From assembly GCF_900220985.1 (NCBI RefSeq), contig NZ_OCPC01000005.1:1-64000 (forward strand): a stretch of 64,000 bases of DNA, written 5' to 3'. The notes beneath the pieces were generated by a model. That model was not told where the DNA came from and ran no database searches. It saw only the letters and a program-made list of their open reading frames with translations. The DNA comes from Parahoeflea halophila. GTDB taxonomy: Bacteria; Pseudomonadota; Alphaproteobacteria; Rhizobiales; Rhizobiaceae. This document shows positions 6,754-31,200 of this stretch, piece after piece. A program made the translations under genes and the position numbers. How positions within the stretch are numbered: position 1 is the stretch's first letter; each line of letters begins with the position of its first letter.

Positions 6754-6830
6754 GCACCCGTAGCTCAGCTGGATAGAGTGCTGCCCTCCGAAGGCAGAGG
6801 TCAGAGGTTCGAATCCTCTCGGGTGCGCCA
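6754..6830 (+). tRNA. tRNA-Arg (anticodon CCG)
   Basis: A 77-nt cloverleaf: acceptor GCACCCG pairs with CGGGTGC; D arm GCTC-AGCTGGATA-GAGT; anticodon stem CTGCC/GGCAG with loop CTCCGAA giving CCG; T arm AGAGG-TTCGAAT-CCTCT; discriminator G and an encoded CCA. tRNA-Arg genes are frequent integration targets. Here a repeated segment begins 35 bases downstream, and integrase relics lie at 8.4-8.9 kb and 30.8-31.2 kb. Confidence 0.97.
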
Positions 6831-6864: not shown

Positions 6865-7169
6865 TGTATGGAACGAGTACGGAAAATAGGGAGCGAGACA
6901 GCGCGCCTTAACACCGTCCTAGCACTCTAGGAAAATCTTTATTTCAGCTTACCAGTCGCCGTGCGGAAGGCTCTGAAATGCGCTGCGTCGATTACTACCG
7001 ACTCTGATCGATGGACATAACCGTCTAGCCGCGCGATGCTCTTTGCCAGAGTACAATGGATAGAGAGGCTGGAATGGGGTTTTGGGTATTCGACCTGACC
7101 AACATCACTGTCTTACATCAGGCGAGCAAAGAACCTTTGACCCGACCGATGCGGACAACCATCCACGGC
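6865..7169 (+). repeat. Diverged 305-bp repeat, copy A (tRNA-proximal)
   Basis: Colinear with 31211-31516 from TGTATGG through TCTAGCCGCGC and GAGAGGCTGGAATGGG to CGACCGATGC. The start-codon offsets are 209 and 210 bases, so net indels are minimal. It covers about 209 bases upstream of the 7074 gene plus its first 32 codons. Protein-level differences are mostly conservative, suggesting both copies once encoded working genes. Confidence 0.8.
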
Positions 7170-7598
7170 GAGGCTACACAAGAGGCCCACTTAAACTCCG
7201 GTATTGTGCCTAACATCGTCACAGCGCTCTCTCACGTCGAAGCCACAGTCAGCCTTTATGAGCGCTCAAATCCCGAATGGAGGTCTTTGCTTCGATCAAT
7301 GGGACATGACCTTCCCACAAGCGAACAATCTATCTCCGGTTTCATAAACTGCCATCAGAACCCCGATATGCTTGGAGCGATATTCATCGCTGAGAGCGAC
7401 GAGATCAGCAGGATACGGAGCACCGTCGAGATCGCTTTGCTAACGTCAGAGCGAAGAAAATTGCGGCTTCTCGCAGGGTCTGTGTATTTCCGAGAAGACG
7501 GTGCAGATGCCCCCTCACCGACCATGCGGGAGTTTTATTCGTCCGGCAGGCCGTTGTATTTCGATGAATTCAGTTTTTCCCTGAGCAAAGATTTATAG
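7074..7598 (+). CDS. Hypothetical protein; intact copy of a duplicated gene
   Basis: A 174-residue soluble protein of unknown family. The ATG at 7074 (MGFWVFDL) is preferred over 7056 because GAGAGGCTGGA precedes it, and because the diverged second copy at 31421 conserves this ATG and the same leader (MGFWTFDL) but not the upstream one. The middle contains a helical stretch (about residues 105-150). The second copy is truncated after about 35 codons. The gene lies 243 bases after tRNA-Arg on the same strand, a typical site for island cargo. No function can be assigned. Confidence 0.65.
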   Translation: MGFWVFDLTNITVLHQASKEPLTRPMRTTIHGEATQEAHLNSGIVPNIVTALSHVEATVSLYERSNPEWRSLLRSMGHDLPTSEQSISGFINCHQNPDMLGAIFIAESDEISRIRSTVEIALLTSERRKLRLLAGSVYFREDGADAPSPTMREFYSSGRPLYFDEFSFSLSKDL

Positions 7599-8382
7599 AT
7601 TTGCGCCGTTGCGACTTGCCTCATCCATCCATCTTCGTCGCTGAGTGGAATTGGATAAGACAAATGATTGCCGGGCTCTTATGGTGTGAACGGCATAAAT
7701 GCAGAGCTAGGGCTGTTTCGACTATGGCTTTTTTCAACCTCATGTGGGTGCGGCCTAGTCCGTTGCCTTGCGTTCAGACTCGCACTCCCCATCCCCCTGC
7801 GGGCCATCACTTCCATGGAGTGGCTTAGCTGGCAAAAGCCGCCCATGGACCTTTCACCTGGATAACAGACATCGATCAGATGGTCTTCGCTAGGCAGACG
7901 CCGCAATCCGGGGTCTCTTGGAACGTTACTCGCGCGCGGCCGCGCGCGCGAGGACAAATGTCTACATTTGTCTACATTCTCGGTCGTGTTGATTCTCGGG
8001 GCGACATCCGCGGATCTTGCGGAGAGGGGGAGAAGCAGATCCGACCGAGACACATCCTCGTTTTATTTAAAAACTGAATATATTACGCTTATTCAATCCG
8101 AAATCATAGAATTTGTGCACCCCACACAAGGCCTAATGATTGCTATTTGCAATCAATGAGCTCGGACGGCTCAATTCCTTCGGGCCCGGCTTGCAGATCT
8201 TGAGATGAAGGCCTTTTTGCCGGTGCGGTTAAAACCGATGCACCGAAAAAGTGCCGCGAGTCGAAAGTCATCGAGGTTAGGCAGATACGTCTGCCGCGAA
8301 ATCCTGCAACAGTCCGACAATGAGACCGGACGCTGCCATGTTGGCTTCCGGCCCCTTTGGTTCACCATGCTCGCCTAACCTC
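7599..8382. other. About 780 bp without a recognisable gene; contains palindromes
   Basis: No frame has both a ribosome-binding site and a family-like sequence. A GC palindrome (7931-7948) is followed by a perfect 7-bp-arm inverted repeat (7954-7971) and a tandem 10-bp repeat (7959-7978). The right part may include the lost N-terminal portion of the integrase pseudogene that follows. Confidence 0.4.
7931..7978. repeat. Compound palindrome and short tandem repeat
   Basis: Bases 7931-7948 are an 18-bp self-complementary CG tract (CGCGCGCGGCCGCGCGCG). Then ACAAATG-TCTA-CATTTGT (7954-7971) is a perfect inverted repeat, and TGTCTACATT is repeated head-to-tail at 7959-7968 and 7969-7978. Such symmetry fits a protein-binding site or a hairpin end, but no gene start is close by. 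Confidence 0.6.
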
Positions 8383-17121: not shown

Positions 17122-19845
17122 TCAGGCTGTCAGGGGTGTGGCTGGGACGCTGCGTTCGACTTCGAACAACAGCCCGCCGGGTCTCGTGTAGTAGGCCCAT
17201 GTCAGCACCGCACAGATCAGGTAGAAGGCGAGGAACCCCCAGAGCGCTGCCACCGGACCGCCGGTCATGGCAATCGACGTGCCGTAGGCTTTCGGGATGA
17301 AGAATGCGCCGTAGGCGGCGATCGCCGATGTAAAGGCGATGATCGCCGCACTCTCGCGACCGGCCTGCTTCTGCAGTTCGTCCCCCTTCAAGTCCTTCAT
17401 CAGGCGGGGCACCTCGCGCGCCATGATCACCGGGATCATCTGGAAGGTCGAGGCATTGCCTACGCCGGTGAGGAAGAACAGCGCCATGAAGCAGGAGAAG
17501 AATCCCCCGAACGCACCCGGCTGCTCCTTTATGCCGAGGAAGAAGATCACTCCGAACACGGCAGCGATCATTCCAAGGAAGGTCCAGAAAGTGACCCTTC
17601 CACCGCCGAACCTGTCTGAGATCCATCCTGTCGCGGCGCGTGACAGCGCCCCCACAAGCGGCCCCAGGAACACGAACTGCAATGCATTGACTTCGGGGAA
17701 CTGCAGCTTCGTCAGCAACGGAAAACCGGCAGAATAACCGATGAAGCTGCCGAAGGTCCCTGTGTAGAGCACGCACATGATCCAGTTGTGTTTGCGGCTG
17801 AAGATGATCGCCTGCTCCTTGAAGCTTGCCTTTGCGTCGGCGATGTCGTTCATGCCGAGCCAGGCCGCGATGGTGGCGGCGATGATGAAAGGCACCCAGA
17901 TGAAGCCTGCGTTCTGCATCCACAATTGCCCGCCATCCGACAGGGCTTGCGGTTGCCCGCCCATCGCCCCGAAGACACCGGCGGTAATCACAACCGGCAC
18001 GGCGAATTGCATCGCCGACACACCGAGATTGCCCAGCCCGGCGTTCAAGGCCAGTGCATTGCCCTTCTCGGCCTTCGGATAGAAGAAGGCGATGTTGGCC
18101 ATCGACGAGGCGAAGTTGCCACCGCCAACGCCGCACAGCAATGCCAGAACGAGGAAGATCAGGTAAGGCGTTTCCGGGCTCTGCACCGCGTAGCCGATGC
18201 CAAGTGCAGGCAAGAGCAGCGACGCGGTGGAGATGGTCGTCCACAACCGGCCACCGAAGATCGGCACCATGAAGCTGTAGAAGATGCGCAAGGTCGCGCC
18301 CGACAGGCCAGGCAGAGCCGCCAGCCAGAACAGTTGGCCCTGCGTGAAATCGAAACCGATCGCCGGAAGGCGAGCCACCACGACCGACCAGACCATCCAG
18401 ACCGAGAAGGCCAGTAGCAGCGCCGGGATCGAGATCCACAGGTTGCGGCGGGCGATGCCTCGCCCCTTGCTCTCCCAGAACATCTTGTCCTCGGGCTTCC
18501 ACTCCTGCAGCACACGCGTCTGCGCCAGCCGCTCGGGATCATGGATGTCCTGCATTTCCGGCAGCTGCGGCAATCGTCCAAGTGCGGGACCGTGGGCAGC
18601 CTGCTCCATGGCGCGGATCGACAGGTGCATCCAGGCCAGCGATATTGCGACGATGACAAACAGCAGCGCAAAACAGCTGGTGTAGATGCCTGTCAGGTCG
18701 AGCAGCGCTCCGAAGCTGATTGGCAGAACAAAACCGCCGAGCCCGCCGATCATGCCGACCAACCCACCCACGGCTCCGACATGGTTGGGGTAATAGACCG
18801 GGATATGCTTGAACACCGCGGCCTTGCCCAGGCTCATGAAGAAGCCGAGCACAAACAGCGTGATGACAAACGGCCACTGCCCCATCTCGGTGCTGAAGGC
18901 GATCGGACCGTCCTTGCCCTGGATCAGATAGTCGGTCGGCGGGTAGGACAGCATAAACAATAGCGCCAACGAGAAGCCGAAGGTCCAGTACATCACTGCC
19001 CGTGCCCCGAACCGGTCGGAGAGATGTCCGCCATAGGCGCGGAACAGAGATGCAGACAGCGAGAAGGCCGCAGCCGACATGCCGGCCGTGCGTATGTCCA
19101 GACCGTAGACGTCGACCAGGTAATGCGGCATCCACAGCGCCAGCGCGACGAAGGCGCCGAAGACAAAGAAATAGTAGAGCGAGAAGCGCCACACCTGCAG
19201 GTTCTTCAGCGGCGCAAACTGCTCGGCCAGCGAGGGGGACTTCCGCCCGGACTTGCGTTGCGCGACCAGCGCCGGATCGTCCTTGGCAAAGACAAAGAAG
19301 ATCAACGCCATGAGCGCCAGGCCCGCGGCCCAGACATGGGCGACGCCATGCCAGCCATAGGCCACCATGACGAAGGGCGCGACAAATTTGGTGACCGCGG
19401 CACCGACATTGCCGGCCCCGAAAATCCCCAGCGCCGTGCCCTGCCGGCCTGCGTCATACCAGCGCGAGACGTAAGCCACGCCGATGATGAAAGATCCGCC
19501 GGCAAGGCCGATGCCGAGTGCCGCGATGAGATACATCGTGTAGGACCCGGCCCAGGTGAGCATCCAGGTTGCCGCCGCGGTCAGCAGCATCTGGGAGGTA
19601 AAAACGATGCGCCCGCCATATCTCTCGGTCCAGACACCGAGGATCAACCGGCTCAGCGACCCCGTGAGGATGGGGGTGGCGACGAGCAGACCGAACTGGA
19701 ACTCGGTCAGCCCCAGCTCCACCTTGATCTCGATTCCGATGATCGAGAAGATGGTCCAGACCGCGAAACAGGCGGTAAAAGCGATCGTGCTCAATCCGAG
19801 AGCACGGGTGCGTTCACTGTCGGGTATATTCACCTTTTCCAGCAT
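17122..19845 (-). CDS. narK: Fused NarK1-NarK2 nitrate/nitrite transporter
   Basis: A 907-residue protein consisting of two consecutive MFS nitrate transporters joined by an approximately 40-residue linker around residues 440-480. The N-terminal half resembles NarK1 (nitrate/proton uptake) and the C-terminal half NarK2 (nitrate/nitrite exchange), the arrangement known in Paracoccus. Both halves have nitrate-signature-like glycine-rich helices (GNVGAAVTK; GVGGGNFASSMANIAFF). The ATG at 19845 is preceded by GCGGAGACACACA; a longer frame to 20151 crosses the regulatory region and is rejected. First gene of the nar operon, downstream of an FNR-type box. Inner membrane, about 24 helices. Confidence 0.95.
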   Translation of the reverse strand: MLEKVNIPDSERTRALGLSTIAFTACFAVWTIFSIIGIEIKVELGLTEFQFGLLVATPILTGSLSRLILGVWTERYGGRIVFTSQMLLTAAATWMLTWAGSYTMYLIAALGIGLAGGSFIIGVAYVSRWYDAGRQGTALGIFGAGNVGAAVTKFVAPFVMVAYGWHGVAHVWAAGLALMALIFFVFAKDDPALVAQRKSGRKSPSLAEQFAPLKNLQVWRFSLYYFFVFGAFVALALWMPHYLVDVYGLDIRTAGMSAAAFSLSASLFRAYGGHLSDRFGARAVMYWTFGFSLALLFMLSYPPTDYLIQGKDGPIAFSTEMGQWPFVITLFVLGFFMSLGKAAVFKHIPVYYPNHVGAVGGLVGMIGGLGGFVLPISFGALLDLTGIYTSCFALLFVIVAISLAWMHLSIRAMEQAAHGPALGRLPQLPEMQDIHDPERLAQTRVLQEWKPEDKMFWESKGRGIARRNLWISIPALLLAFSVWMVWSVVVARLPAIGFDFTQGQLFWLAALPGLSGATLRIFYSFMVPIFGGRLWTTISTASLLLPALGIGYAVQSPETPYLIFLVLALLCGVGGGNFASSMANIAFFYPKAEKGNALALNAGLGNLGVSAMQFAVPVVITAGVFGAMGGQPQALSDGGQLWMQNAGFIWVPFIIAATIAAWLGMNDIADAKASFKEQAIIFSRKHNWIMCVLYTGTFGSFIGYSAGFPLLTKLQFPEVNALQFVFLGPLVGALSRAATGWISDRFGGGRVTFWTFLGMIAAVFGVIFFLGIKEQPGAFGGFFSCFMALFFLTGVGNASTFQMIPVIMAREVPRLMKDLKGDELQKQAGRESAAIIAFTSAIAAYGAFFIPKAYGTSIAMTGGPVAALWGFLAFYLICAVLTWAYYTRPGGLLFEVERSVPATPLTA

Positions 19846-19951
19846 TGTGTGTCTCCGCATGGCGGCGCAGGCAATCACTGCGCGCGTGTATTCTCGACGC
19901 CGGCGTGATGGCCGGTACACACACAAATTCACGTTGGGAAACCGGGCGCCG

Positions 19952-19965
19952 TTGACACAGATCAA
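19952..19965 (-). promoter_or_regulatory. FNR/NnrR-type box serving narK
   Basis: TTGACACAGATCAA matches the FNR-family consensus TTGAT-N4-ATCAA with one difference. It lies 107 bases upstream of the narK ATG. A class II arrangement would place the transcript start about 41 bases beyond the centre, near 19917, leaving a leader of about 70 bases. Confidence 0.75.
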
Positions 19966-20044
19966 ACGGATTAGCCAGGTTCGGCCCAATCGAACCGGAA
20001 TTGCCTTTGGTCCTTTTTCAATGAGGAATTGATCAACGAGCCAT

Positions 20045-20058
20045 TTGATAAATATCAA
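20045..20058 (+). promoter_or_regulatory. Perfect FNR/NnrR-type box serving the regulator gene
   Basis: TTGATAAATATCAA is a perfect match to TTGAT-N4-ATCAA, 62 bases upstream of the regulator ATG at 20120. A class II start would fall near 20093. Together with 19952-19965 this gives one box per divergent promoter. They could be read by the encoded regulator itself, by FNR, or by NnrR. Confidence 0.8.
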
Positions 20059-20119
20059 GTCGTGCCGTGAAGATTGCCAGTAGATTGCCCGCGTAGGCAT
20101 ATCGGAGGAGAGACACAGC

Positions 20120-20839
20120 ATGCGGGATGAAGACAAACCCGAGATTCGCAAATTGCCACTGTTCCGGGATATGACTGGGGAGAATTTCGAAACGCTTACC
20201 CGGGCGGCCTACGCGCAAAGTTTTCCCGCACAGCTGGAGATGATCCGCCAAGGCGAACCTGCCGATTTTCTGCACGTGGTCATGGAAGGCACGGTGGAAC
20301 TCTTTTCGGGCTGGCGTGAGCGCGAAACCACAATGGCCGTGGTCCGGCCGGTGTCGAGCTTCATCCTCGCCGCCTGCATCAAGGATGCACCCTATCTGAT
20401 GTCGGCGCGCACCATCGAGAAATGCCGCATCGTGATGATACCGGCAAAAGATCTGCGGGCGACGTTTAGAACCGACCCTGATTTCGCGATGTCAACGATA
20501 AGCGAGTTGGCCAGTTGCTACCGGTCGGTGGTGCGTCACACCAAAAGCCTGAAGCTGCGCAGCTCCCGGGAACGCGTGGCTGCCTATGTTCTCTGCCAGT
20601 CGAGACTGACCGGCAACGCTGCGAGCTTCATTTTGCCAATGGAAAAACGGCTGCTGGCGTCGTTTCTCGGCATGACACCGGAAAACTTCTCACGCGCCGT
20701 CAAATCGTTGCAGTCCGACGGTGTTGCAGTGGACGGGATGCGCATCATCATCACCAATTTCGAGGCGCTTGAAGCTGTGGCCGGACTGGATGCACTGATA
20801 GACGGGTTTGGTATCAGCGGCGAACTGAATAGCGCTTAG
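20120..20839 (+). CDS. narR: Crp/Fnr-family regulator, NarR-like
   Basis: A 239-residue regulator with an N-terminal cyclic-nucleotide-type beta-barrel (about 15-125), a dimerisation helix (about 130-160) and a C-terminal winged helix (about 160-220; LASFLGMTPENFSRAVKSL is the recognition region). The N-terminus lacks the Cys cluster that lets FNR sense oxygen. That fits the NarR/NnrR branch, which responds to nitrate/nitrite or nitric oxide, possibly through heme. Divergent from narK, as expected of a dedicated activator; in Paracoccus NarR activates narK. The symbol is given by context and similarity. Confidence 0.8.
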   Translation: MRDEDKPEIRKLPLFRDMTGENFETLTRAAYAQSFPAQLEMIRQGEPADFLHVVMEGTVELFSGWRERETTMAVVRPVSSFILAACIKDAPYLMSARTIEKCRIVMIPAKDLRATFRTDPDFAMSTISELASCYRSVVRHTKSLKLRSSRERVAAYVLCQSRLTGNAASFILPMEKRLLASFLGMTPENFSRAVKSLQSDGVAVDGMRIIITNFEALEAVAGLDALIDGFGISGELNSA

Positions 20840-21116: not shown

Positions 21117-21509
21117 TCACCATAGATTACGCATGGCACGTAGCGCGTCGGCACGTGACAACTGCCCGACAAGTGCCCCACCTTCAAGCACGGGAAATCG
21201 ACGATAAGGCGTCTCAGCAAACAGTTTCGCCGCTTCCAAGATTGTACGACCCGCGTTGAGCGTGACGGGATCTGGTGCCATGTAGTCGCTGACGAGGCCA
21301 TTCCATGCGCGATGATAACTGCTGTCGATGGCAGCCCGCAGGCAGTCTTTCTTCGAAAGTACGCCGCGCAGCCAGCCTTCGTCGTCGACGACAGGGGCGC
21401 CGGAAATCTTTTCGTCAAGCAGCAAGTTCATCGCATGATTGATATTCTGATCCGGCGCTAATGTAATCAGTCTGCGCGCCATGTAGTCGGCTACGAGTGG
21501 CATGGTCAT
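21117..21509 (-). CDS. Two-CBS-domain protein at the end of the nqr operon
   Basis: A 130-residue protein made almost entirely of a tandem CBS pair: VADYMARRLITLAPD...ISGAPVVDDEGWLRGVLSKKDCLRA, then VSDYMAPDPVTLNAG...YRRFPVLEGGALVGQLSRADALRAM. Such Bateman modules bind adenine nucleotides and sense energy state. The ATG at 21509 overlaps the nqrM stop (ATGA), which fixes the start and ties the gene to the nqr operon; a longer upstream frame overlaps nqrM and is rejected. No membrane segment. A regulatory role for the sodium pump is inference. Confidence 0.85.
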   Translation of the reverse strand: MTMPLVADYMARRLITLAPDQNINHAMNLLLDEKISGAPVVDDEGWLRGVLSKKDCLRAAIDSSYHRAWNGLVSDYMAPDPVTLNAGRTILEAAKLFAETPYRRFPVLEGGALVGQLSRADALRAMRNLW

Positions 21510-21682
21510 ACTCTGTGATCCTTGATCGCGGTGCACCCTTGGCATCTTGTGGCTTTCATACAGGCTAGGCCGCCGCAAGACCCTTTGACAGGTGGCCGAC
21601 CGAAAAGCGGGCCGACTGTAAGTCCGGCCATGAGCAGAAGAATAACTAAAACGGTTGCGAGCAGCATGATGGCGAAACTCAT
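21506..21682 (-). CDS. nqrM: Na+-NQR maturation factor NqrM (small gene)
   Basis: A 58-residue protein with one N-terminal membrane helix (about 3-24, AIMLLATVLVILLLMAGL), then GPLFGRPPVKGSCGGLACMKATRCQGC with Cys36, Cys41, Cys47 and Cys50. KGSCGGLA and the Cys-rich tail are characteristic of NqrM (formerly DUF539). NqrM is required for assembly of functional NQR, probably by delivering iron to the NqrD/NqrE centre. It overlaps both neighbours by four bases (apbE stop and CBS start), so the reading is strongly supported by operon geometry. Operon order apbE-nqrM is the standard one. Confidence 0.9.
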   Translation of the reverse strand: MSFAIMLLATVLVILLLMAGLTVGPLFGRPPVKGSCGGLACMKATRCQGCTAIKDHRV

Positions 21683-22677
21683 TTCTGGACCTCGTGTCGG
21701 GTAAAATGTCCGGTGCGCACCGCGGAAACCAAACTGCAGTCTACCCGGGCAGAAACCAGAATGAGGGCGTCAATTGCATTTGCATGGGCAAGGTCGACCG
21801 CCTCGCGCGCGTCAAGTGCGGCCAAAGCGGTCGACCATGCATCGGCCTCCATTGCATTGTCGGCGATGACCGTGGCGCTGCGCACTTCCTGCGAGGCTGG
21901 TTGCCCACCGGCTGGAGCCATGATGTGCGACAGACCGATAATGCCGTCGACTCCCTGGTGGCGATGCCCTGATGTGGCGATTGCTCGTCCATCAGGCCTG
22001 ATGACGGTAATCGCATTGCTCGTGCCGGGAAGCGGGTTTTCGACCGCGATGTGCCATGGTCGTCCTGCCGGATGCGAGCCAAGCGCGGCATACTCCCCAC
22101 CGATTTCGACGAGCATGTTGTCGAACCCATCGGCATGCAACCGCTCGATGATCAGATCGACGGCCCGCCCTTTAGCAATGCCGCAAAGGTCAATGGTGGC
22201 GCCGTCAACATGTTTGAGCAGCCTTTCACCTGCAAGACCGAAGCCTTCGCGGAAAGGCACAAAATCTCCACGTATCGGGCCAAAACCCATGCGGTTCACC
22301 AACGGGCCGACGCCGGGATCAAACGCACCGTCACTCGCCTTCGTGACCGTCTCGGCAGATGCAAGGACGACTGCCATCTCTGGACTGATCTTGAACTGGG
22401 AACCTTTTGGCGCGGCGTTTACAGCGAAAATCTCGCTGTCGCACCGATAAGGTGACATTGACCGGTCGACCAAAGCGATCGCATCGGTGATGATCTTCGC
22501 CACTTGGGTGCGATTTGTACTGGCGTCACACAAGGCACGCCATTGTGTCCCAAACCCGGACCCCGTGAGAACCATCGGTTTCGTTGCGGAAGTTGCAATT
22601 TGTGGCATTGCGAAGACACCGGCAATAGCAGCCGCAGTTTTCAAGACTTCACGTCGATTTAAGGTGTTGTAGGACAT
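21679..22677 (-). CDS. apbE: FAD:protein FMN transferase ApbE
   Basis: A 332-residue flavin transferase that covalently attaches FMN, via phosphoester bonds to Thr/Ser, to NqrB and NqrC using FAD as donor. The N-terminus is a Tat-like signal (NRREVLKTAAAIAGVFA), placing it in the periplasm where the acceptor sites lie. Family motifs include the SPYRCDSEIFAVN segment, DLCGIAKGRAVD, MLVEIGGEYAALG and the metal-binding end DNAMEADAWSTAL. It follows nqrF by three bases and overlaps nqrM by four, so it is dedicated to this pump. Confidence 0.93.
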   Translation of the reverse strand: MSYNTLNRREVLKTAAAIAGVFAMPQIATSATKPMVLTGSGFGTQWRALCDASTNRTQVAKIITDAIALVDRSMSPYRCDSEIFAVNAAPKGSQFKISPEMAVVLASAETVTKASDGAFDPGVGPLVNRMGFGPIRGDFVPFREGFGLAGERLLKHVDGATIDLCGIAKGRAVDLIIERLHADGFDNMLVEIGGEYAALGSHPAGRPWHIAVENPLPGTSNAITVIRPDGRAIATSGHRHQGVDGIIGLSHIMAPAGGQPASQEVRSATVIADNAMEADAWSTALAALDAREAVDLAHANAIDALILVSARVDCSLVSAVRTGHFTRHEVQK

Positions 22678-22680
22678 CCT

Positions 22681-23898
22681 CTAAACTCCAAAATCATCGC
22701 TGAATATGTTGTCGGGTTCAACGCCCAGTTCGTCCAGCATTGCCATGACAGCCTTGATCATGAGTGGTGGGCCACAAAGATAGTATTCGCATTCCTCAGG
22801 CGCCGGATGTGAGGCGAGATGATCGCGCATGACCACATCGTGCACGAAACCTGTAGCCCCTTCCCAAGCATCATCCTTTGCCGGCTGCGAGAGCACGCTG
22901 ACCCATCGGAAATTGCTGTGCAAATTCGCCAACCGGTCCAATTCGTCCACATAAATCAACTCGCGCCGCTCGCGTGCGCCATACCAGTAGCTCATTGGAC
23001 GGCTTGAATTGTGGATTTCAAGTTCCTCCAGGATGATCGCCCTTAGGGGAGCCATACCCACACCACCGCCGATGAAAATCATCTCGTTTTGTGTCTGCTG
23101 GGCGCGGAAAGATCCGAACGGGCCCGTCGCCATGATGGTGTCGCCTTCGTTCAGCGCAAACAGCCATGAAGAGACGATACCAGGCGGCGTTCCGGGCAAG
23201 TGCGGCGGCGGAAGCGCGAGACGAATGTTCAAAACCAGTCGACCGGACCGCGTGTCTTCAAGACGGTTGGAGATCGAATAGGCCCTTGTCACAGGCTCGC
23301 GGCTTACCGACTTCAAATGTCGTACGGGCACCCACGCGTCGCGATGGGCGTAAGGGATCTCGATATCCGCGAAATCCAGTTGATAGGGCGGTGCTTCCAA
23401 CTGAATATAGTCCCCGGCCTTCACCGCCGGGGCTTGGCCTTCGGGATACTCAAGGACCAGTTCGCGGATGAACGGTGTCAGGGAACGGTTGGCAACCACA
23501 GTCACTTCAACCGGCTCTACCCCGATCAACCCGTCCGGAACGGTAATGTGCAACGGTCCACGTACGGTCACTTGGCATGCGAGGCGTTCACCGTTGCGCA
23601 ATTGCGCGCGGGTCAAGCGCGCGGTTTCCGTTGGAAGTGGCGCGTCTGCTCCCGCCACTTTGACGCGGCACAAACCGCATGTGCCGGCACCGGCACAGGC
23701 TGATGGGACCGCGATGCCATGGTTGTTGAGAACACCCAGCAACTTGCTGTTGGTTGTCCCCTCGAAATCGATCTTACCGTTTATAGTGAGCTTGACCGGT
23801 ACGGCCGGCATCAACACGCGGCGCGTTATGCCGATTAATGCGGTCAAACCGGTGATGATCAGCGTGATTACGCCAACGCCCATAAAAACTTCGGTCAT
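22681..23898 (-). CDS. nqrF: Na+-NQR subunit F (NADH dehydrogenase module)
   Basis: A 405-residue subunit, near the usual length of about 407. One N-terminal membrane helix is followed by a 2Fe-2S ferredoxin domain with [10 protein letters not shown] and a fourth Cys in ERLACQV (about residues 70-112). A ferredoxin-reductase domain comes next, with the FAD motif RAYSISN, the loop GPFGSF, the nucleotide motif [13 protein letters not shown] and the C-terminal [10 protein letters not shown] and DDFGV. It oxidises NADH and feeds electrons into the pump. It overlaps nqrE by four bases. Confidence 0.96.
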
Positions 23899-24494
23899 CC
23901 GGCTGCCCCCGCAAAAGCGGCAAAGCCGAGTGACAACAAGCCGGTGATCAAGAATGCGCTGCCCAGCCCATTAAGACCATTGGGCATATCAGAGTAGCGT
24001 ATGCGTTCACGAATTGCTGCAAACGCGATGATCGCAAGTGCCCAACCGAAACCGCTGGAGAAACCAAAAATGGCAGCTTCGCCGATGGTGTATTCTCGCT
24101 CCACCATGAACAGACTACCGCCAAGAATGGCGCAGTTGACTGTAATCAGGGGCAAAAAGATACCAAGCGCACGGTGCAGGACAGGCAAGTAGCGGTCGAG
24201 CACCATCTCGGTGATCTGCACCATCGCGGCGATGATCCCGATGAACGCAATCAGGGCCAGATAGGAAAGGTCGAGATCAGGTAGTCCAGCCCAAGACCAA
24301 GCGCCTGGCGCCAACAGCGCGTGATAGACAAAAGCATTGGCGGTCACAGTGATGGTCTGGATAACAATCACTGCTATGCCGAGCCCAAATGCCGTGTCTA
24401 CCCGTTGGGAAACCGCGAGAAAGGTGCATATGCCGAGGAAGAATGACAGCGCTAGATTCTCGGAGAAAACCGCGGTGAAGAAGATGTCAGTCAT
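23895..24494 (-). CDS. nqrE: Na+-NQR subunit E
   Basis: A 199-residue membrane protein with six hydrophobic helices, of the NqrE/RnfA family. Cysteines equivalent to the membrane-embedded iron(-sulfur) ligands are present in [13 protein letters not shown] (about 20-32) and TVNCAILGG (about 118-126). With NqrD it relays electrons between the cytoplasmic FeS of NqrF and the periplasmic FMN of NqrC. It overlaps nqrD by eight and nqrF by four bases. Confidence 0.95.
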
Positions 24495-25137
24495 CGGAAA
24501 GCTCCTCGCGACGCAGGCCGTAGCCAGTGCGCTCGACGAGATCGCGGCGTTTCGACCTTATCGCCCAGATCAGGAAACCGATAACGAAGTAAGCGCTTGG
24601 CGCGAGCGTCATCAATCCGATCGGCTCGAACCAACCGCCATTTGATGCCAACGGAAAAACCGTCATTGCGAACCATGTACCCTGGCCAAGCACTTCACGG
24701 ACCGTCCCGACCAGCAGCAGTATCAGGCTGTAACCCAACGCATTGGCAAGGCCGTCAATTGCCGAGGGACCGACCGGGTTGCGTGACGCAAACGCTTCTG
24801 CGCGGCCCAACACAAGGCAGTTGGTGACGATCAATCCGACGAAGATTGACAGCTGACGGCTCAGTTCGAAGGCATAGGCCTGCAAAATCTGGTCTGTAAC
24901 GATCACCAATGAGGCAATGATAGTGATCTGCACGATAAGCCTGATCGAGGGCGGGATATGGTGCCGGATCGACGAGATGATCACATTTGATGTGCAAAGA
25001 ACCGCGGTCAATGCCATCGACATGGTCAGCGCCGTCGCCACGCTTGTACTGACGGCGAGCGCCGAGCAGATACCGAGGATTTGCTGTGTGACCGGATTGT
25101 TGGTGATCAGAGCAGACCGGATCTCGCGCATTGCCAT
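24487..25137 (-). CDS. nqrD: Na+-NQR subunit D
   Basis: A 216-residue polytopic membrane protein of the NqrD/RnfE family, with six predicted helices. Conserved Cys lie in [10 protein letters not shown] (near 22) and [13 protein letters not shown] (near 110), expected partners of the NqrE cysteines. The ATG at 25137 starts one base after the nqrC stop (TGACATG). A 27-residue upstream extension overlaps nqrC and is rejected. Confidence 0.95.
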
Positions 25138-25138
25138 G

Positions 25139-25939
25139 TCAGCCCCCCTCCGCGCGCAATCGCTCGATGAACGGGCCGAATCCGTGGTCACCAAGCCAGT
25201 ACCTGACCATGTTGGCAACGCCCTGACTGGTAACGGTAGCGCCTGAAATGCCGTCCACTTCGAAGCTCGTGCTGGCGCCGCCGCGAACCACGTCGATCAT
25301 GATGGTACCGTCCGTGCCGGCAACCTGTTTGCCAACCCAGCTTGCCTGCCATTCGGGTGTTTCGATGCGCGCGCCAAGTCCTGCGGTTTCGGCCTGTTCG
25401 AGGATACGCAACGCCGCAACAGTGGTCAGGTCGCTTTCGAGCGCCATTACCGCGCTTATGACAGATTGGTAGCCACGACCCCGCATCGGGAGCACAACAA
25501 GCAGAAGTTCACCGTCCTTCTCCACGATGTTGACCGGTATCTGCGACGGGCGCGTTCGCAAACGGGCCAGATCCCGGTCGCCTGGAATTGTCGTTGCGAT
25601 GTCTTCGCTTGACGCTGCCGCATCATAGTCGAAACCCGCTGTTTCGGCGCCCGGAACAAATTGCCCGGTTGAAAGGTCAACCATGCGCGTCTCCAGTCCA
25701 TCTGCCCCGCTTTCGGCAATGATGTCGCGTAGGCCGGGAACGGCATCAACCATCGCGGCCATTCGCGCCTCACGCTCAGCCGCTAGGTTCGCCTCTTGAA
25801 CCGGGCGCAAGTAGGCGGTCGCTCCCGATACGAGTAACGAGCAAGTAAGGGCTACGCTGATCGCTACGCCGAAGACTTTTGCCGGGTCGTCGTTTGAGCG
25901 GGCCAGAAAACCGGGCGATTGGTACTTACGCTCTTGCAT
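25139..25939 (-). CDS. nqrC: Na+-NQR subunit C (covalent FMN)
   Basis: A 266-residue subunit with one N-terminal helix (about 22-45) and a periplasmic FMN-binding domain. The ApbE recognition motif DGISGATVTS is intact: Asp229, Ser232, Gly233, Ala234 and the acceptor Thr235. That contrasts with the altered motif in NqrB. MRGRGYQSVISAVMALE is a typical NqrC segment. ATG 25939 is preferred to TTG 25942. The start lies within the last codons of nqrB, so the two are coupled. Confidence 0.94.
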   Translation of the reverse strand: MQERKYQSPGFLARSNDDPAKVFGVAISVALTCSLLVSGATAYLRPVQEANLAAEREARMAAMVDAVPGLRDIIAESGADGLETRMVDLSTGQFVPGAETAGFDYDAAASSEDIATTIPGDRDLARLRTRPSQIPVNIVEKDGELLLVVLPMRGRGYQSVISAVMALESDLTTVAALRILEQAETAGLGARIETPEWQASWVGKQVAGTDGTIMIDVVRGGASTSFEVDGISGATVTSQGVANMVRYWLGDHGFGPFIERLRAEGG

Positions 25940-26711
25940 CAATGCGCCTTCCGATTGTCAGGATTGCTTGATCCAGGAGCGGAACGAAGAGTGCTGTCAG
26001 CAGAACCGCGCGCACCAGTGTTGTGGTGGCGTCTGCGCCGCCTGCTCCCAGAAATGCGAATAGAACCGCCGCCAGCACGCCTTGCAGCACCTGGCCGCTG
26101 CGTGTCTGCGCGGATGCAAATGGATCGGCGAGCAGGAACACGCCACCAAACACGAGCACCCCCCAAGCGGTCGTGGTGGTGATCGTGTCCGACAAACCGG
26201 TCATTGCGATGCAGCCAAGTGCGAACGCGCCAAGCGCACGCCAAGGCAATACACCCGCCACTGCCAACGCCAGTACGGCGGGTGCCGTTGCTGCGGCATG
26301 CATATCAGTTAAGCTGGCCAACGCAGTACCTGGAAACGACACGACCACAAGCGCCGCGATCACCACGGCCGCATTCAGGAAACCGAAACCACGCCCACCG
26401 AAAATCATCTCCGACAGCGTGACCCCGAGCACTGTCATGGTTGCCGCCCGCCAAAGTGCGATCTCTGTTGGCAGCAGGATGGCGAGGATAAAAGCAGTCG
26501 TTACATTGTGTGCCGTAAGCGCCTGTTTGCGTATCAGACGGAACGTCATTTCCGTTGCGATGGCGCTTGTTGTCAATACGGCCAGCAAAGGCAGGACTGC
26601 AGTACCGGATTCCGAAACCGTCACTCCAAGCCCCGGTAGCAGCATCGCGGCTGTGACCAGGGTCGTGAACGCGAGGCCACGACCGGCGATCATAGTGCGC
26701 AGACTACTCAT
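25926..26711 (-). CDS. nqrB: Na+-NQR subunit B, unusually short form
   Basis: A 261-residue NqrB/RnfD-family membrane protein; canonical NqrB is about 410. The missing part is mainly the approximately 150-residue N-terminal portion, which in the classical enzyme contains the cytoplasmic extension and first helices. The family core is clear (HNVTTAFILAILLPTEIALWRAA, MIFGGRGFGFLNAA). Where the canonical protein has an SGAT motif carrying FMN, this one has Asp136-Met-His-Ala-Ala-Ala-Thr142, which still fits a loose D-x-x-[SA]-[GA]-A-T ApbE pattern. No stop or frameshift is visible between nqrA and this start: the ATG overlaps the nqrA stop by four bases, so the short length appears genuine. Confidence 0.88.
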   Translation of the reverse strand: MSSLRTMIAGRGLAFTTLVTAAMLLPGLGVTVSESGTAVLPLLAVLTTSAIATEMTFRLIRKQALTAHNVTTAFILAILLPTEIALWRAATMTVLGVTLSEMIFGGRGFGFLNAAVVIAALVVVSFPGTALASLTDMHAAATAPAVLALAVAGVLPWRALGAFALGCIAMTGLSDTITTTTAWGVLVFGGVFLLADPFASAQTRSGQVLQGVLAAVLFAFLGAGGADATTTLVRAVLLTALFVPLLDQAILTIGRRIDARA

Positions 26712-27976
26712 GATCGCGCCTCCGCAAGCTCATCAAGGGCGTGCCTGAGAAGAACGCCGTAATCCGCGCCGCTGGTGCAAACGCGCGACAGTTGCGCAAC
26801 ATCGGCTTCCAGCATTTTGTCGGCTCCGAGCGCCTCGACAGTCTCCAAATCATGAGCCGTCAGCGCACGCATCAGAGGCAGGGCCGGTTGGCCAAATGGC
26901 AGTGCGTCGATGAGAGCTCCGTAGGGTGTGATAGCATTGATGCGAAGATTGCCACGCCCACTTACATCAACATCACGCTTCGAAGTCAGCGTCACCACGT
27001 CGTCGAAGCGGTGAAGGTAGGCAGCAGGCACCCCACTGACCGGGTCACCTGAGAGAACGGTCATCGACCGTTTCGAACCGAAGTTGCTCTTTTTGCGCAA
27101 GCCAGTGGCGAGAGCCTTGAGGTCGGACCCGACCGGAACCGTGGCAACGGCGCGAGTTCCAGCGTTGTCACCGCCAATACCCACTTGACGACGCCACGAT
27201 ACAGTCCCTGTATTGACCAAGCGCCCGATGGCCAGTGTATCTTGCCAGTCGACCGTTAGGACCGGGTTGGTACCCGTCTGCGGCCGCAACGCATGAACGT
27301 GCGTGCCTGAAAGCGCAGAGCAGTAGGCTCCGCTGAACCGGGCGATACGCAGTTTGCGACCATTGTTGTTACAGAGGGGCTGAGCCGCCTGCTGACAAAC
27401 GAACACGGCTTCCTCTGCCAAGAGCCCGATAGCATCCACGCCTGCGGCAAACCATCGAAACTCTTCCTGCAACATTTTTGCTGGATCCGGGCTGTTGCCT
27501 GATTTGCAGCATGCATTGATGAAGATTGCGGGTATCGGCTTGGGCGGATCCGGAACGAGACCGAACGGCCGGGTTTTGAAGGCGGTCCACAGGCCAGACG
27601 AAAGCAGCAACCTGACCAACGCTTCACGATCAGTTGGTGGCGCGTGATCGTACCGTCGCTTCTCGAAACATGAGGGTTCTGGCGCGTTGGCCTTGATCGC
27701 GATACGCTGTATGCTTCGCCTTGCCCCACGCTCGATCGCGGTGATCTCTCCGCTTGCAGGTGAAACCAGTGTGATGTTTGAGTTGTGTCGGTCGCACAAT
27801 ATCTGGTCACCGCATGCGATCCGGTCGCCTACGGCTACCACAGGCTTCCACTTCGGACCTCGAAAATTTTCGCCAAGTAACGCGAGCGCATTGATTTTCC
27901 GGTCCAACTCGACAAACGGCTGGTCGGGTTCGGGGGATGGTGCGGCAATACCGTTTCGGAACGTGAAGTTCTGCAT
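26708..27976 (-). CDS. nqrA: Na+-NQR subunit A
   Basis: A 422-residue soluble subunit on the cytoplasmic side, first gene of the operon. It aligns with NqrA through the barrel-like N-terminal part (KPVVAVGDRIACGDQIL; SPASGEITAIERGARRSIQ), the FKTRPFGLVPDP segment and SGTHVHALRP. It is more diverged than the other subunits and has a cysteine-rich patch (NACCKSGN). The ATG at 27976 (MQNFTFRNG) is chosen because it matches where NqrA normally begins; a start at 28030 would add 18 unusual basic residues. The promoter region with an FNR-type box lies upstream. Confidence 0.9.
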   Translation of the reverse strand: MQNFTFRNGIAAPSPEPDQPFVELDRKINALALLGENFRGPKWKPVVAVGDRIACGDQILCDRHNSNITLVSPASGEITAIERGARRSIQRIAIKANAPEPSCFEKRRYDHAPPTDREALVRLLLSSGLWTAFKTRPFGLVPDPPKPIPAIFINACCKSGNSPDPAKMLQEEFRWFAAGVDAIGLLAEEAVFVCQQAAQPLCNNNGRKLRIARFSGAYCSALSGTHVHALRPQTGTNPVLTVDWQDTLAIGRLVNTGTVSWRRQVGIGGDNAGTRAVATVPVGSDLKALATGLRKKSNFGSKRSMTVLSGDPVSGVPAAYLHRFDDVVTLTSKRDVDVSGRGNLRINAITPYGALIDALPFGQPALPLMRALTAHDLETVEALGADKMLEADVAQLSRVCTSGADYGVLLRHALDELAEARS

Positions 27977-28055
27977 CGTGGCGTGTTTCCGCTTCCTGAC
28001 TACGATCTCAGTTTCGAAAGTCGCCACCAAGCTAGCGTCCGAACACCTAATGTCT

Positions 28056-28069
28056 TTGATTCAAGTCAA
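28056..28069. promoter_or_regulatory. FNR-type box in the nqrA/pentaheme-cytochrome intergenic
   Basis: TTGATTCAAGTCAA matches TTGAT-N4-ATCAA with one difference (G for A). Its centre is 65 bases from the cytochrome ATG and 86 from the nqrA ATG. Class II spacing gives plausible starts near 28104 (plus) and 28021 (minus). One site could therefore control both divergent units. Confidence 0.65.
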
Positions 28070-28127
28070 TGCGCGATCCGCCAAAGTGCAATGTCATAGT
28101 AGCCGGGAAACAAAGGGAGTTACCGCC

Positions 28128-29234
28128 ATGGTATTCAGATTTGTGTTCGCTGCCACGTTTGTTTTTGCGCTGGGGTTTTCTGCTCATACTGCGCTCGCCC
28201 AAGACCAGAATTCTCAAACGCTGGAAAGGCTTTCGCGCATTGTCGAAGCGTGGCGTCAGTCGCCACACGCAGACTTCGAATCTCAAGCCTTTACGCATTG
28301 GAACGATGAAGAGGCCCGCCAAGTACCTGGCTCATGTGCGGTTTGCCATTCGGGCATCGGATTCAATTCCTATGTCACGGGAGACATGTCGGTTGCCGGT
28401 ATCCTCGATCACCCAACCCCACTTGGTAACACCGTCGACTGCGCCGCCTGCCATGGTGAAGGTGCGACGAACCTGACAGAAGTTCCTTTCCCTTCCGGTG
28501 TCCGTCTCGACGGATTTGAAACGTCCGCCGTGTGCGTCGTGTGCCACCAGGGGCGCGCGGCAGGAGTGACGGTGCAAAACGCAACCGCAGGCCTCGAAGA
28601 CGACACCGTCTCCGAAGCGCTTTCCTTTATCAACGTTCACTATTCGCCTTCGGCAGGAACGCAGATGGGTTCAGTTGCCGGAACCGGCTATCAGTATGAA
28701 GGTAGGACCTACAAAGGTCAGTTTACACACGTTTCGGACTTTCAGCAGTGCACCGACTGCCACCGCCCGCACTCTTTGGCATCAGTTCCAATCGAGAACT
28801 GTACAGCGTGCCACCAAGGTGCTGAAGCGTTCTCCGACATCCGAATCTCTCCGGCTGATTTTGATGGAGACGGTGATGTGAGCGAGGGCATCGGAGAACC
28901 GATCAAGGAGATGCATGGACGGCTTTATGCTGCGATCCAATCCTACGCGCGTGACGTCGCCGGAACTGCCGTCATCTACGCAGATAGATATCCGCATTTC
29001 TTCATCGACACCGATGGTGACGGAGCGGCGACAGAGGGAGAAGTTGCCTTCCCCAACCGCTATGCTTCGTGGACACCGCGCTTGCTCAAAGCGGCGTACA
29101 ACTATCAGTTCATCGCAAAAGACAAGGCTGCATACGCGCATAACCCGCACTACGCACTTCAGATCCTATACGACACGCTTGAGGACCTCAGCGGTTCGGT
29201 CGATGTCGATATGGCTAAGCCCACACGGCCGTAA
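28128..29234 (+). CDS. Periplasmic pentaheme c-type cytochrome with EF-hand-like loops
   Basis: A 368-residue exported protein: signal peptide 1-24 (ending HTALAQ), then five CxxCH heme sites starting at Cys70, Cys105, Cys136, Cys208 and Cys225. The C-terminal half has no hemes but holds two acidic loops. DFDGDGD (244-250) is partial. DTDGDG...E (Asp294, 296, 298 and Glu305) is a canonical EF-hand calcium loop. The ATG follows GGGAGTTACCGCC; a long upstream frame is rejected because it crosses the promoter. It resembles multiheme reductase or carrier proteins but no exact family is recognised. Divergent from the nqr operon and sharing its FNR-type box, it may exchange electrons at the periplasmic face. 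Confidence 0.88.
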   Translation: MVFRFVFAATFVFALGFSAHTALAQDQNSQTLERLSRIVEAWRQSPHADFESQAFTHWNDEEARQVPGSCAVCHSGIGFNSYVTGDMSVAGILDHPTPLGNTVDCAACHGEGATNLTEVPFPSGVRLDGFETSAVCVVCHQGRAAGVTVQNATAGLEDDTVSEALSFINVHYSPSAGTQMGSVAGTGYQYEGRTYKGQFTHVSDFQQCTDCHRPHSLASVPIENCTACHQGAEAFSDIRISPADFDGDGDVSEGIGEPIKEMHGRLYAAIQSYARDVAGTAVIYADRYPHFFIDTDGDGAATEGEVAFPNRYASWTPRLLKAAYNYQFIAKDKAAYAHNPHYALQILYDTLEDLSGSVDVDMAKPTRP

Positions 29235-29271
29235 CGCCTGAAACCGCCGTGTGCTAGGGGACAGTTGGCTG

Positions 29272-30450
29272 ATGGATGATTGGGTAATGCTTGTCGCTCT
29301 GGGCAGTATCCTCCTTTGCGGTCTTGCACTGGACGCTGTCGGACGCATCGTTCATGTGCCGAGGGTCACCCTACTGATGATTATGGGGGCGGTCGCCGGG
29401 CCGCCTCTTTTTGGCCGCATTCCAGAAGAACTCGTCGATAATTCAGGCGTCTTCAGCGATGTGGCGCTAACAATGGTGGCTTTTTTGCTGGGCGGATCGC
29501 TGCGTCCAGAAGACATGAAGAAGCACGGTCGAGAAATCTTCAGCTACTCGATATCCATTGTGATTGTATCAGCGGTGTTTGTGACTGTAGCCCTTTGGGC
29601 ACTCGGTGCAGATCCGGCGCTTGCATTGCTGCTTGGTGCGATTTCGGTGGCGACAGCACCGGCAGCCACGATGGATGTCATCCGGCAATCGGGCAATACC
29701 GGTCACTTCGCAAAGACCATCAGGGGTATCGTTGCCATTGACGACGTTTGGGGCATTCTCCTCTTCAGCGCTTCTATGGTTATCGCAGGCGTGTTGATCG
29801 GGGTCGATTTCGGCGCGAGCATGGTAAACGGTTTGTGGGAGATCTTTGGCGCTATTCTGATAGGCATCAGCATCGGCTTTCCAGCGTCCTATCTGACTGG
29901 AAGGGTCAAGGCTGGCGAACCCACTCTCGTTGAAGCGGTAGGCGTAGTCGTTCTGTGCTGCGGGGTCGCGTCGGCTCTGGACGTTTCGTTCCTTTTGACT
30001 GGCATAACCTGTGGCGCCGTCATCGTGAACTTTGCCCTACATCATGAGCGCCCATTTCACGAGATTGAGCGGATCGAATGGCCATTCATGTTGCTGTTCT
30101 TCGTTTTGGCTGGTGCTTCGTTTGAAGCGGGCAATCTGTCAATGGTCTGGTCTACAGTGATTGGCTTCGTTGTATTCCGCGTTGCAGCTCGGTTCGTGGG
30201 TGGACTCATCGGTGCCGTCGCGATCGGCAAAACGGTGCACGAGGGATTGCTGACAGGCTTGGCGTTGAGCCCGCAGGCGGGTGTATCGATTGGCATGGCG
30301 TTGGTGGCAGCTGACCAATTCCCATCCCTTGCGGAACCTTTGATCGCAATCGTCATGATCACCACAATCATATTCGAGCTCGTGGGCCCATTTGGTACAC
30401 AGTTCGCTTTGAGCCGACAGGTAACTACGGCTACCGGTGCCTCAGGCTGA
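29272..30450 (+). CDS. Monovalent cation:proton antiporter (CPA family)
   Basis: A 392-residue membrane protein with 11-13 hydrophobic segments and the sodium/proton exchanger fold. Typical features are LGAISVATAPAATMDVIRQSG (half-helix crossing region) and IRGIVAIDDVWGILLF, whose paired acidic residues (IDD) are the expected ion/proton site. The ATG at 29272 follows AGGGGAC; a GTG at 29251 is the alternative. Thirty-seven bases after the cytochrome stop, so probably cotranscribed with it. Placed beside a sodium-pumping NADH dehydrogenase, it could use or balance the sodium gradient. KefB/NhaP-type, exact ion uncertain. Confidence 0.88.
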   Translation: MDDWVMLVALGSILLCGLALDAVGRIVHVPRVTLLMIMGAVAGPPLFGRIPEELVDNSGVFSDVALTMVAFLLGGSLRPEDMKKHGREIFSYSISIVIVSAVFVTVALWALGADPALALLLGAISVATAPAATMDVIRQSGNTGHFAKTIRGIVAIDDVWGILLFSASMVIAGVLIGVDFGASMVNGLWEIFGAILIGISIGFPASYLTGRVKAGEPTLVEAVGVVVLCCGVASALDVSFLLTGITCGAVIVNFALHHERPFHEIERIEWPFMLLFFVLAGASFEAGNLSMVWSTVIGFVVFRVAARFVGGLIGAVAIGKTVHEGLLTGLALSPQAGVSIGMALVAADQFPSLAEPLIAIVMITTIIFELVGPFGTQFALSRQVTTATGASG

Positions 30451-30777: not shown

Positions 30778-31200
30778 CTAGTTTTTCAGTATGGCGGATA
30801 TCTTGTCGCCCACCGCCTCTGCTGCTGCTCTTAACGGATCATCATGCAAATGCGCATATCGTTGGGTGGTAGCGCTATTTTTGTGACCAAGAAGAGCGCC
30901 TATGATTGGTAGACTAGCACCTCCAGACACGGCTATGCTCGCGAAACTGTGGCGTAAGTCATGCAGACGGACATCCTCCAAGCCGGCCATGTCTCGAATG
31001 ATACGCCAGACCTTAAGGGTTCCCTCGTAGTAGCCGTCGCTGCGATGAGCCGGAAACACGAAAGGTGAACCCTCGAGCTTCGTTATAGCGTTCAAAATTT
31101 CCAGTGCACCTCCATTAAGGGGGATGGCCTTTTGACCAGTTTTGGAATCGGCAAGGCGGAGATACCCGCCCATGAAATCAACAGCATCCCAATGCCCCAC
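30778..31200 (-). pseudogene. Truncated tyrosine integrase (C-terminal catalytic half)
   Basis: Only the last 140 residues of a phage-type integrase remain. They contain Lys20 of the beta-hairpin, HDLRH (His80, Arg83), LLGHKN (His106) and Tyr115 (TTQRYAH). The first catalytic Arg and the DNA-binding domains are missing. The frame is closed by a stop just before the GTG at 31200, exactly where the diverged repeat copy B begins (31211). A rearrangement evidently removed the 5' half. Different from the integrases at 837 and 8383. Confidence 0.85.

Follow-up and report, generated by a model that had tools for sequence, protein, structure and literature searches.

A short-NqrB variant of the NQR operon is linked to a pentaheme cytochrome c and may pass NADH electrons to the periplasm

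Introduction

The closest described systems to the locus reported here are the Na+-NQR of Vibrio cholerae, the Rnf complex of Methanosarcina acetivorans with its multiheme cytochrome MmcA, and the two-subunit NQR/RNF-like systems (statements on published work refer throughout to the available excerpts of the cited papers). In Methanosarcina, mmcA is the first gene of the rnf operon (PMC11024163), and RnfG was proposed as the donor to the multiheme cytochrome in M. acetivorans (PMC4023990, PMC11024163). The two-subunit systems are NqrB-NqrF fusions, found mainly in Actinobacteria and candidate phyla; their NqrB/RnfD-like part is without the flavinylated threonine, and a one-way flow from NAD(P)H to the periplasm has been proposed for them (PMC8238504, PMC11334425). 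Here we analysed an nqr operon in a stretch of 64,000 nucleotides of Parahoeflea halophila (the window; contig NZ_OCPC01000005.1, positions 1 to 64,000), which encodes a short NqrB and lies beside a gene for a pentaheme cytochrome c. Sequence comparison suggests, with a probability of roughly two in three, that this variant NQR passes NADH electrons via the flavin mononucleotide (FMN) of NqrC to the periplasmic pentaheme cytochrome, and no longer to quinone.

The variant shares with V. cholerae Na+-NQR the six subunits in the same order, NqrM and ApbE, the input through NADH, flavin adenine dinucleotide (FAD) and 2Fe-2S, the cluster cysteines of NqrD/E and a flavinylated NqrC. It differs in its NqrB (FMN loop missing, quinone pocket and proposed Na+-path acids mostly gone), in its NqrA (without the NqrB-contact segment) and in its link to the pentaheme cytochrome and a CBS protein. 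The likeness to Rnf-MmcA is that a complex of the Rnf/NQR type has a multiheme cytochrome gene at its operon and that electrons are proposed to exit from the periplasmic FMN subunit to that cytochrome; the mmcA-first gene order is paralleled by seven loci with the cytochrome directly before nqrA on one strand. However, Rnf-MmcA is archaeal, fed by ferredoxin (RnfB, RnfC) and has a heptaheme cytochrome of octaheme tetrathionate reductase (OTR) kinship, while the variant is pentaheme and NADH-fed, its input gene being nqrF rather than a gene for ferredoxin input via RnfB. Kinship between the two cytochromes was not detected (five CXXCH motifs in the variant; no match to TIGR04314, the heptaheme family, or TIGR04315 at E 0.01). 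In contrast to the two-subunit systems, the variant has the full NqrA-F set with NqrD/E, and nqrB and nqrF are separate genes in the window. Among the matches listed in the open-licence PMC literature, no published description of a short-NqrB/pentaheme-cytochrome variant was found.

Results

The NqrB alignment comprised 60 variant rows (window included, five loci present twice) and four ordinary NqrB. As judged from conserved residues, the input half of the variant is intact. The equivalents of NqrE Cys26/Cys120 were kept in 59/59 variant rows and those of NqrD Cys29/Cys112 in 45/45; the first cysteine of the NqrF 2Fe-2S motif, the one cysteine tallied across rows, was kept in 58/58; and the NqrC flavinylation motif was seen in 60/61 and, on re-reading, in the last one. 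Two NqrC residues at the FMN were altered (L145 to Y in 58/59, W146 to Q in 54/59). In a tree of NqrE, NqrF and NqrC, a branch with support 97 separated 53 variant rows from the four ordinary rows and genome G216, although the program warned of long branches meeting, the window's row included.

The output half is eroded. The NqrB of the window is indeed short (261 amino acids), as noted in the first-pass annotation, and it is the sole NqrB/RnfD-family gene of the genome (two match stretches, one gene). Two long blocks (43 and 44 residues) were deleted in at least 90% of the variant NqrB, namely the loop between transmembrane helices (TMH) 1 and 2 and the FMN loop, which normally bears the flavinylation motif DG[YF]SGAT (Thr236 loop). 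This covalent-FMN loop was deleted in all 60 aligned rows. A first reading of the alignment as loss of TMH1 was dropped, as TMH1 is retained and the deletion lies in the TMH1-2 loop. The quinone-site residues (PMC12779168, PMC10643135, PMC4014512) were almost entirely replaced at G140 (kept in 1/60), G141 (2), N156 (0), E157 (0), G158 (1) and F159 (0), while the E144 position carried Glu in 34 and Asp in 13 rows. The NqrA segment corresponding to V. cholerae 330-379, which is intertwined with the NqrB N-terminus in the structure (PMC9325719), was mostly lost; over residues 331-360, the 59 variant rows showed 3% matches to ordinary NqrA and 63% gaps. The pocket composed of G140, G141, N156-F159 and the NqrB N-terminus with NqrA 330-379 is mostly lost from the variant. 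The riboflavin-binding side chains of V. cholerae NqrB are T162, N200, N203 and D346 (PMC9325719, PMC10643135); the two asparagines were kept in 3 and 15 of the 60 rows respectively, and the four positions read T, G, N and D in the window's own NqrB. The NqrB/RnfD fold was retained in a structure model (mean predicted local distance difference test, pLDDT, 92.7; TM-score 0.81 to 9eri_D and 0.73 to V. cholerae 7xk3_B). Because the FMN loop and the greater part of the quinone pocket are gone from NqrB, the variant is probably not a quinone reductase with a cytochrome added.

Short NqrB (249-282 amino acids) occurred in 13 of the 18 loci fetched around NqrB matches in relatives, and the cytochrome gene adjoined nqrA in 12/12 of the short-NqrB loci uncut by a contig end; the neighbourhood of short nqrB and cytochrome is therefore conserved, as expected from the first-pass annotation. 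Genome-wide, in a set of 101 relatives and 385 class members, the cytochrome was present in 14/16 genomes with short NqrB and in 0/22 with a longer NqrB or RnfD match. These 22 were called by open frames of 325-694 amino acids, and 14 of them showed the flavinylation motif, the rest having none or being unread by the pattern used. One short-NqrB genome without the cytochrome, G008, is 75% complete and its contig ends in nqrA; the other, G216, is considered in the Discussion. Relatives of the cytochrome numbered 471 in a scan of 84,980 species. The analysis covered the best 80 of the 471, as ranked by similarity to queries linked to NQR, and for this reason the partner shares lean towards NQR. 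Together with seven further loci of relatives they gave 87 loci, 56 beside NQR, 18 beside a ferric-reductase (FRE) type and 13 others; the NQR-side loci were divergent in 48 cases and same-strand in eight, with the cytochrome directly before nqrA in 7/8. The variant occurs in Rhodobacterales and Rhizobiales. The earlier suggestion of the cytochrome as electron partner of NQR was strengthened by this linkage, whereas the quinone role left to NQR is made improbable by the changes in NqrB.

The histidines of the five CXXCH motifs and five further histidines were invariant in 92/92 cytochromes, which fits five bis-histidine hemes and an electron carrier rather than a reductase. A role as an enzyme was rejected on account of the five invariant extra histidines; from the same residues, no open active-site heme of the NrfA type, without a distal ligand, is predicted. 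The cytochrome is predicted to be periplasmic by its signal-like N-terminal helix, and its model (mean pLDDT 92.3), read without a predictor, showed no membrane anchor beyond this helix. There was no significant fold relative in the PDB (best Foldseek match OcwA, E 0.06, probability 0.97, TM-score 0.40), and PDB profile matches were weak and partial.

The partners of the cytochrome family other than NQR were of two types. One consists of membrane proteins that combine Ferric_reduct, FAD and NAD domains (two assigned by Pfam, the others by tblastn); the other, found in two loci, is a PepSY-flavodoxin-NAD reductase accompanied by an ApbE-like gene. We take both to be exporters of NAD(P)H electrons to the periplasm. 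Within the genus of the window, nine genomes had the NQR type beside the cytochrome (G000, which is the window's genome of 4.19 Mb, G001, G002, G003, G007, G010, G011, G013 and G015) and four had the FRE type (G004, G005, G012 and G014). In a quick, unrooted cytochrome tree, the 20 FRE rows were split off from all others by one branch (support 100); the 57 NQR rows needed seven changes. One further locus (L116, 8311-14159) also places an antiporter next to a member of the cytochrome family: an FRE-type partner, the pentaheme cytochrome and a subunit of an Mrp-type antiporter lie there in succession. In Hoeflea G006 a paralog of the cytochrome adjoins an OTR-family protein (L180, 7504-9390 and 9393-10523; TIGR04315 401 bits, cut-off 375), and partial TIGR04315 matches lie beside the paralog in two more Hoeflea genomes, G005 and G012 (L181, L182).

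In the window, all of nqrABCDEF lies within one minus-strand operon with apbE, nqrM and a CBS gene (21117-27976), so tightly packed that neighbouring genes overlap or lie a few bases apart. The cytochrome and antiporter genes diverge from it across an FNR-like palindrome (Table 1). The genes named previously were all found at the positions given for them, and their families match in Pfam/NCBIfam.

Table 1. Features of the nqr-cytochrome locus in the window
Feature	Position	Strand	Evidence
CBS-pair protein, last operon gene (open reading frame, ORF, 153 aa)	21117..21578	-	PF00571, two stretches
nqrM, Fe-S maturation factor of NQR	21506..21682	-	PF04400 24 bits, cut-off 22; 45/52 related loci
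apbE, flavin transferase	21679..22677	-	PF02424 195 bits; 50/52 related loci
nqrF, NADH/FAD/2Fe-2S input subunit	22681..23898	-	TIGR01941 405 bits, over cut-off
nqrE	23895..24494	-	TIGR01940 278 bits, over cut-off
nqrD (ORF; true start probably near 25137)	24487..25218	-	TIGR01939 258 bits, over cut-off
nqrC, periplasmic FMN subunit, SGAT motif	25139..25942	-	TIGR01938 155 bits, over cut-off
Short nqrB (261 aa)	25926..26711	-	PF03116 82.6 bits; nqrB equivalog 56 bits, far below cut-off of 349.9
nqrA (ORF to 28030; ATG at 27976 likely)	26708..27976	-	nqrA equivalog 201 bits, below cut-off of 321
FNR/DNR-like palindrome TTGAT-TCAA-GTCAA, common to both divergent units	28056..28069		One mismatch to TTGATnnnnATCAA
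Pentaheme cytochrome c (368 aa), five CXXCH motifs	28128..29234	+	CXXCH count; signal-like N-terminal helix
Na/H-exchanger-family antiporter, IDD motif	29251..30450	+	PF00999 110 bits

The FNR-like box and the CBS gene, both pointed out in the window beforehand, recur in relatives. The CBS gene was present in 49/52 loci with all six nqr genes. A box with at most one mismatch to TTGATnnnnATCAA was found in 45/49 divergent nqrA-cytochrome intergenic regions (window included) vs. 59/1440 equal-length segments elsewhere in the same loci, and in 11/18 FRE intergenic regions vs. 12/540 segments. Segments elsewhere in the loci were used as the control because a segment-swap shuffle of the NQR regions (site in 149/1470) is leaky and can leave the motif intact; single-letter shuffles gave a site in 10/1400 (set with three loci counted twice). 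An FNR/DNR-type regulator probably controls expression of the nqr operon and the cytochrome when oxygen is low. The antiporter, assigned to the same system by the first-pass annotation, was present in part of the relatives and its link is weaker; it followed the cytochrome in just 15/53 NQR loci with room, in 0/17 FRE loci and in 2/12 others (NQR vs. FRE, Fisher 0.015, kinship ignored). Its partial recurrence is a weak hint of Na+ traffic.

The window does have a nar operon and a CRP/FNR-type regulator next to the nqr locus. The suggested coupling of the two is not conserved: narG, the NarK-like MFS protein and the regulator gave no match at E 1e-5 in 102 related stretches (at most 21 kb each, repeats included). 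One FNR match at 1.25e-5 (in L028) came from an earlier comparison of the relatives' loci. A narG over the cut-off was present in 13/19 cytochrome-bearing genomes (window's own among the 19) vs. 21/82 other genomes of the set, leaving 6/19 with none. The MFS protein beside narG (17122-20151, 1009 amino acids, MFS_1 matched) is of double length and presumably resembles a fused NarK1-NarK2. The nar-nqr stretch is flanked by a phage-type integrase gene (837-1823) on one side and by an integrase-domain ORF of 140 amino acids (30778-31200) on the other, with a tRNA-Arg nearby (6754-6830), which agrees with acquisition of the block by transfer. As the window's cytochrome grouped with that of L028, from another family of the order, instead of with the other Hoeflea NQR rows (support 96), the nqr-cytochrome locus of the window was probably acquired apart.

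Elsewhere, the surroundings of the cytochrome and of short nqrB varied. Genes for a universal stress protein, Hsp20, a PAS kinase, an M50-CBS protease and a P-type cation ATPase lie near the cytochrome in L057, L069, L103 and L117 (Pfam on five proteins of the first three loci; L117 by eye). Such sets of genes resemble those of low-oxygen stress islands. The G216 locus (L173, 9500-15012) has the order short nqrB-C-D-E-F-apbE-nqrM-CBS, and a tetraheme protein is encoded approximately 2 kb from this operon (7029-7625).

Discussion

In the mechanism that we propose, NADH would be oxidised at NqrF, whose FAD and 2Fe-2S would pass the electrons on. They would then cross the membrane through the NqrD/E cluster (2Fe-2S) and reach the FMN bound covalently to NqrC, at the periplasmic face. 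The ordinary return branch (FMN of NqrB, riboflavin, quinone) appears dismantled, and because of this the electrons would exit from the FMN of NqrC to the cytochrome, which would hand them to a periplasmic acceptor. The path from NADH through NqrF and NqrD/E to NqrC follows from the retained sites, while we infer the step from NqrC to the cytochrome, its direction and the regulation. The intact input, the eroded output, the cytochrome link, the recurring box and the alternative NAD(P)H-to-periplasm partners of the cytochrome family all support transfer to the cytochrome.

Several observations weigh against it. The residue tables rest on four ordinary NQRs only, all from relatives of the window's genome. 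One pairwise alignment set a threonine of the window (DMHAAAT) opposite T236, and since D346, a riboflavin ligand tested by mutation in V. cholerae, was kept in 59/60 rows and T162 in 45/60, NqrB could still hold a non-covalent flavin. G216 has short NqrB, but neither the pentaheme cytochrome nor any NqrA in its genome. Clustering of flanking ORFs over 90 stretches yielded no constant terminal acceptor: the largest cluster (29/90 stretches) consists of ABC-transporter ATPases by eye and another (11/90) contains CRP/FNR-like regulators by eye. OTR was tried as acceptor and rejected: three Hoeflea genomes have it next to a paralog of the cytochrome, but the window's genome has none; one NQR-type genome, G007, has one OTR, elsewhere in the genome.

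The retained riboflavin residues, together with an acidic E144 position in 47/60 rows, the mostly kept gate residues F338 and F342 and the conserved NqrB/RnfD fold would suit an ordinary though divergent NADH:quinone oxidoreductase, with the cytochrome as a co-regulated neighbour serving another job. Such an enzyme is improbable in view of the FMN loop absent from 60/60 rows, the loss of most quinone-pocket residues, the eroded NqrA contact segment and the linkage of short NqrB with the cytochrome; moreover, complex I is already present in the window's genome, as it is in 18/18 genomes tested. The presence of complex I, which covers NADH:quinone duty, also bears on an MmcA-like detour, in which NqrC reduces the cytochrome and the cytochrome reduces membrane quinone, so that the net reaction is again NADH:quinone. 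In Methanosarcina, methanophenazine receives electrons from Rnf by way of MmcA (PMC11024163, PMC4023990), but the cytochrome studied here showed neither a match to the heptaheme family nor, in its model, an anchor past the N-terminal helix, and we regard this detour as unlikely. The flow might also be reversed, with periplasmic electrons entering at the cytochrome and the ion gradient driving them to NAD+. Rnf is able to run in reverse (PMC11889175). The antiporter, where it follows the cytochrome (15/53 vs. 0/17 loci, uncorrected for kinship), could feed a Na+ gradient. However, the alternative partners are flavocytochrome types that presumably oxidise NAD(P)H under normal conditions, and no linked electron-donating periplasmic enzyme was seen in flanks that were clustered but not fully annotated; there is little to recommend a reverse duty. 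Forward transfer from NqrC to the cytochrome is thus the reading that we prefer.

Whether the variant pumps Na+ depends on which pump model holds. The Na+-carrying subunit of NQR/Rnf is disputed: NqrB was named as the carrier in PMC10643135, with the acidic path residues D52, E157 and E273, whereas the RnfA/E pair (equivalent to NqrE/D) was named as the pump in PMC11889175. The proposed NqrB acids were mostly lost in the variants (E157 in 0/60 rows, Asp at the D52 position in 7/60, Glu at the GE motif in 5/60, this Glu being 274 by our count vs. E273 in PMC10643135), while the proposed gate residues were mostly kept (F338 in 42/60, F342 in 55/60). The NqrD/E pair, the pump of the Rnf model, was retained. 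Tentatively, and with rather more doubt than confidence, the variant may be an NQR-derived NADH:periplasmic-cytochrome oxidoreductase without the quinone branch that still pumps Na+ at NqrD/E in one membrane crossing, with Na+/H+ exchange clearing the proton of NADH. If so, NqrB would not be the Na+ channel.

Because NqrD/E is kept and the acids and flavin loop of NqrB are lost, Na+ transport by the variant could separate the NqrB and NqrD/E models. The variant would be a natural test of how NQR-type pumps work. As a counterpart of Rnf-MmcA, it would be bacterial and fed by NADH, and it would give NADH electrons a new exit to the periplasm.

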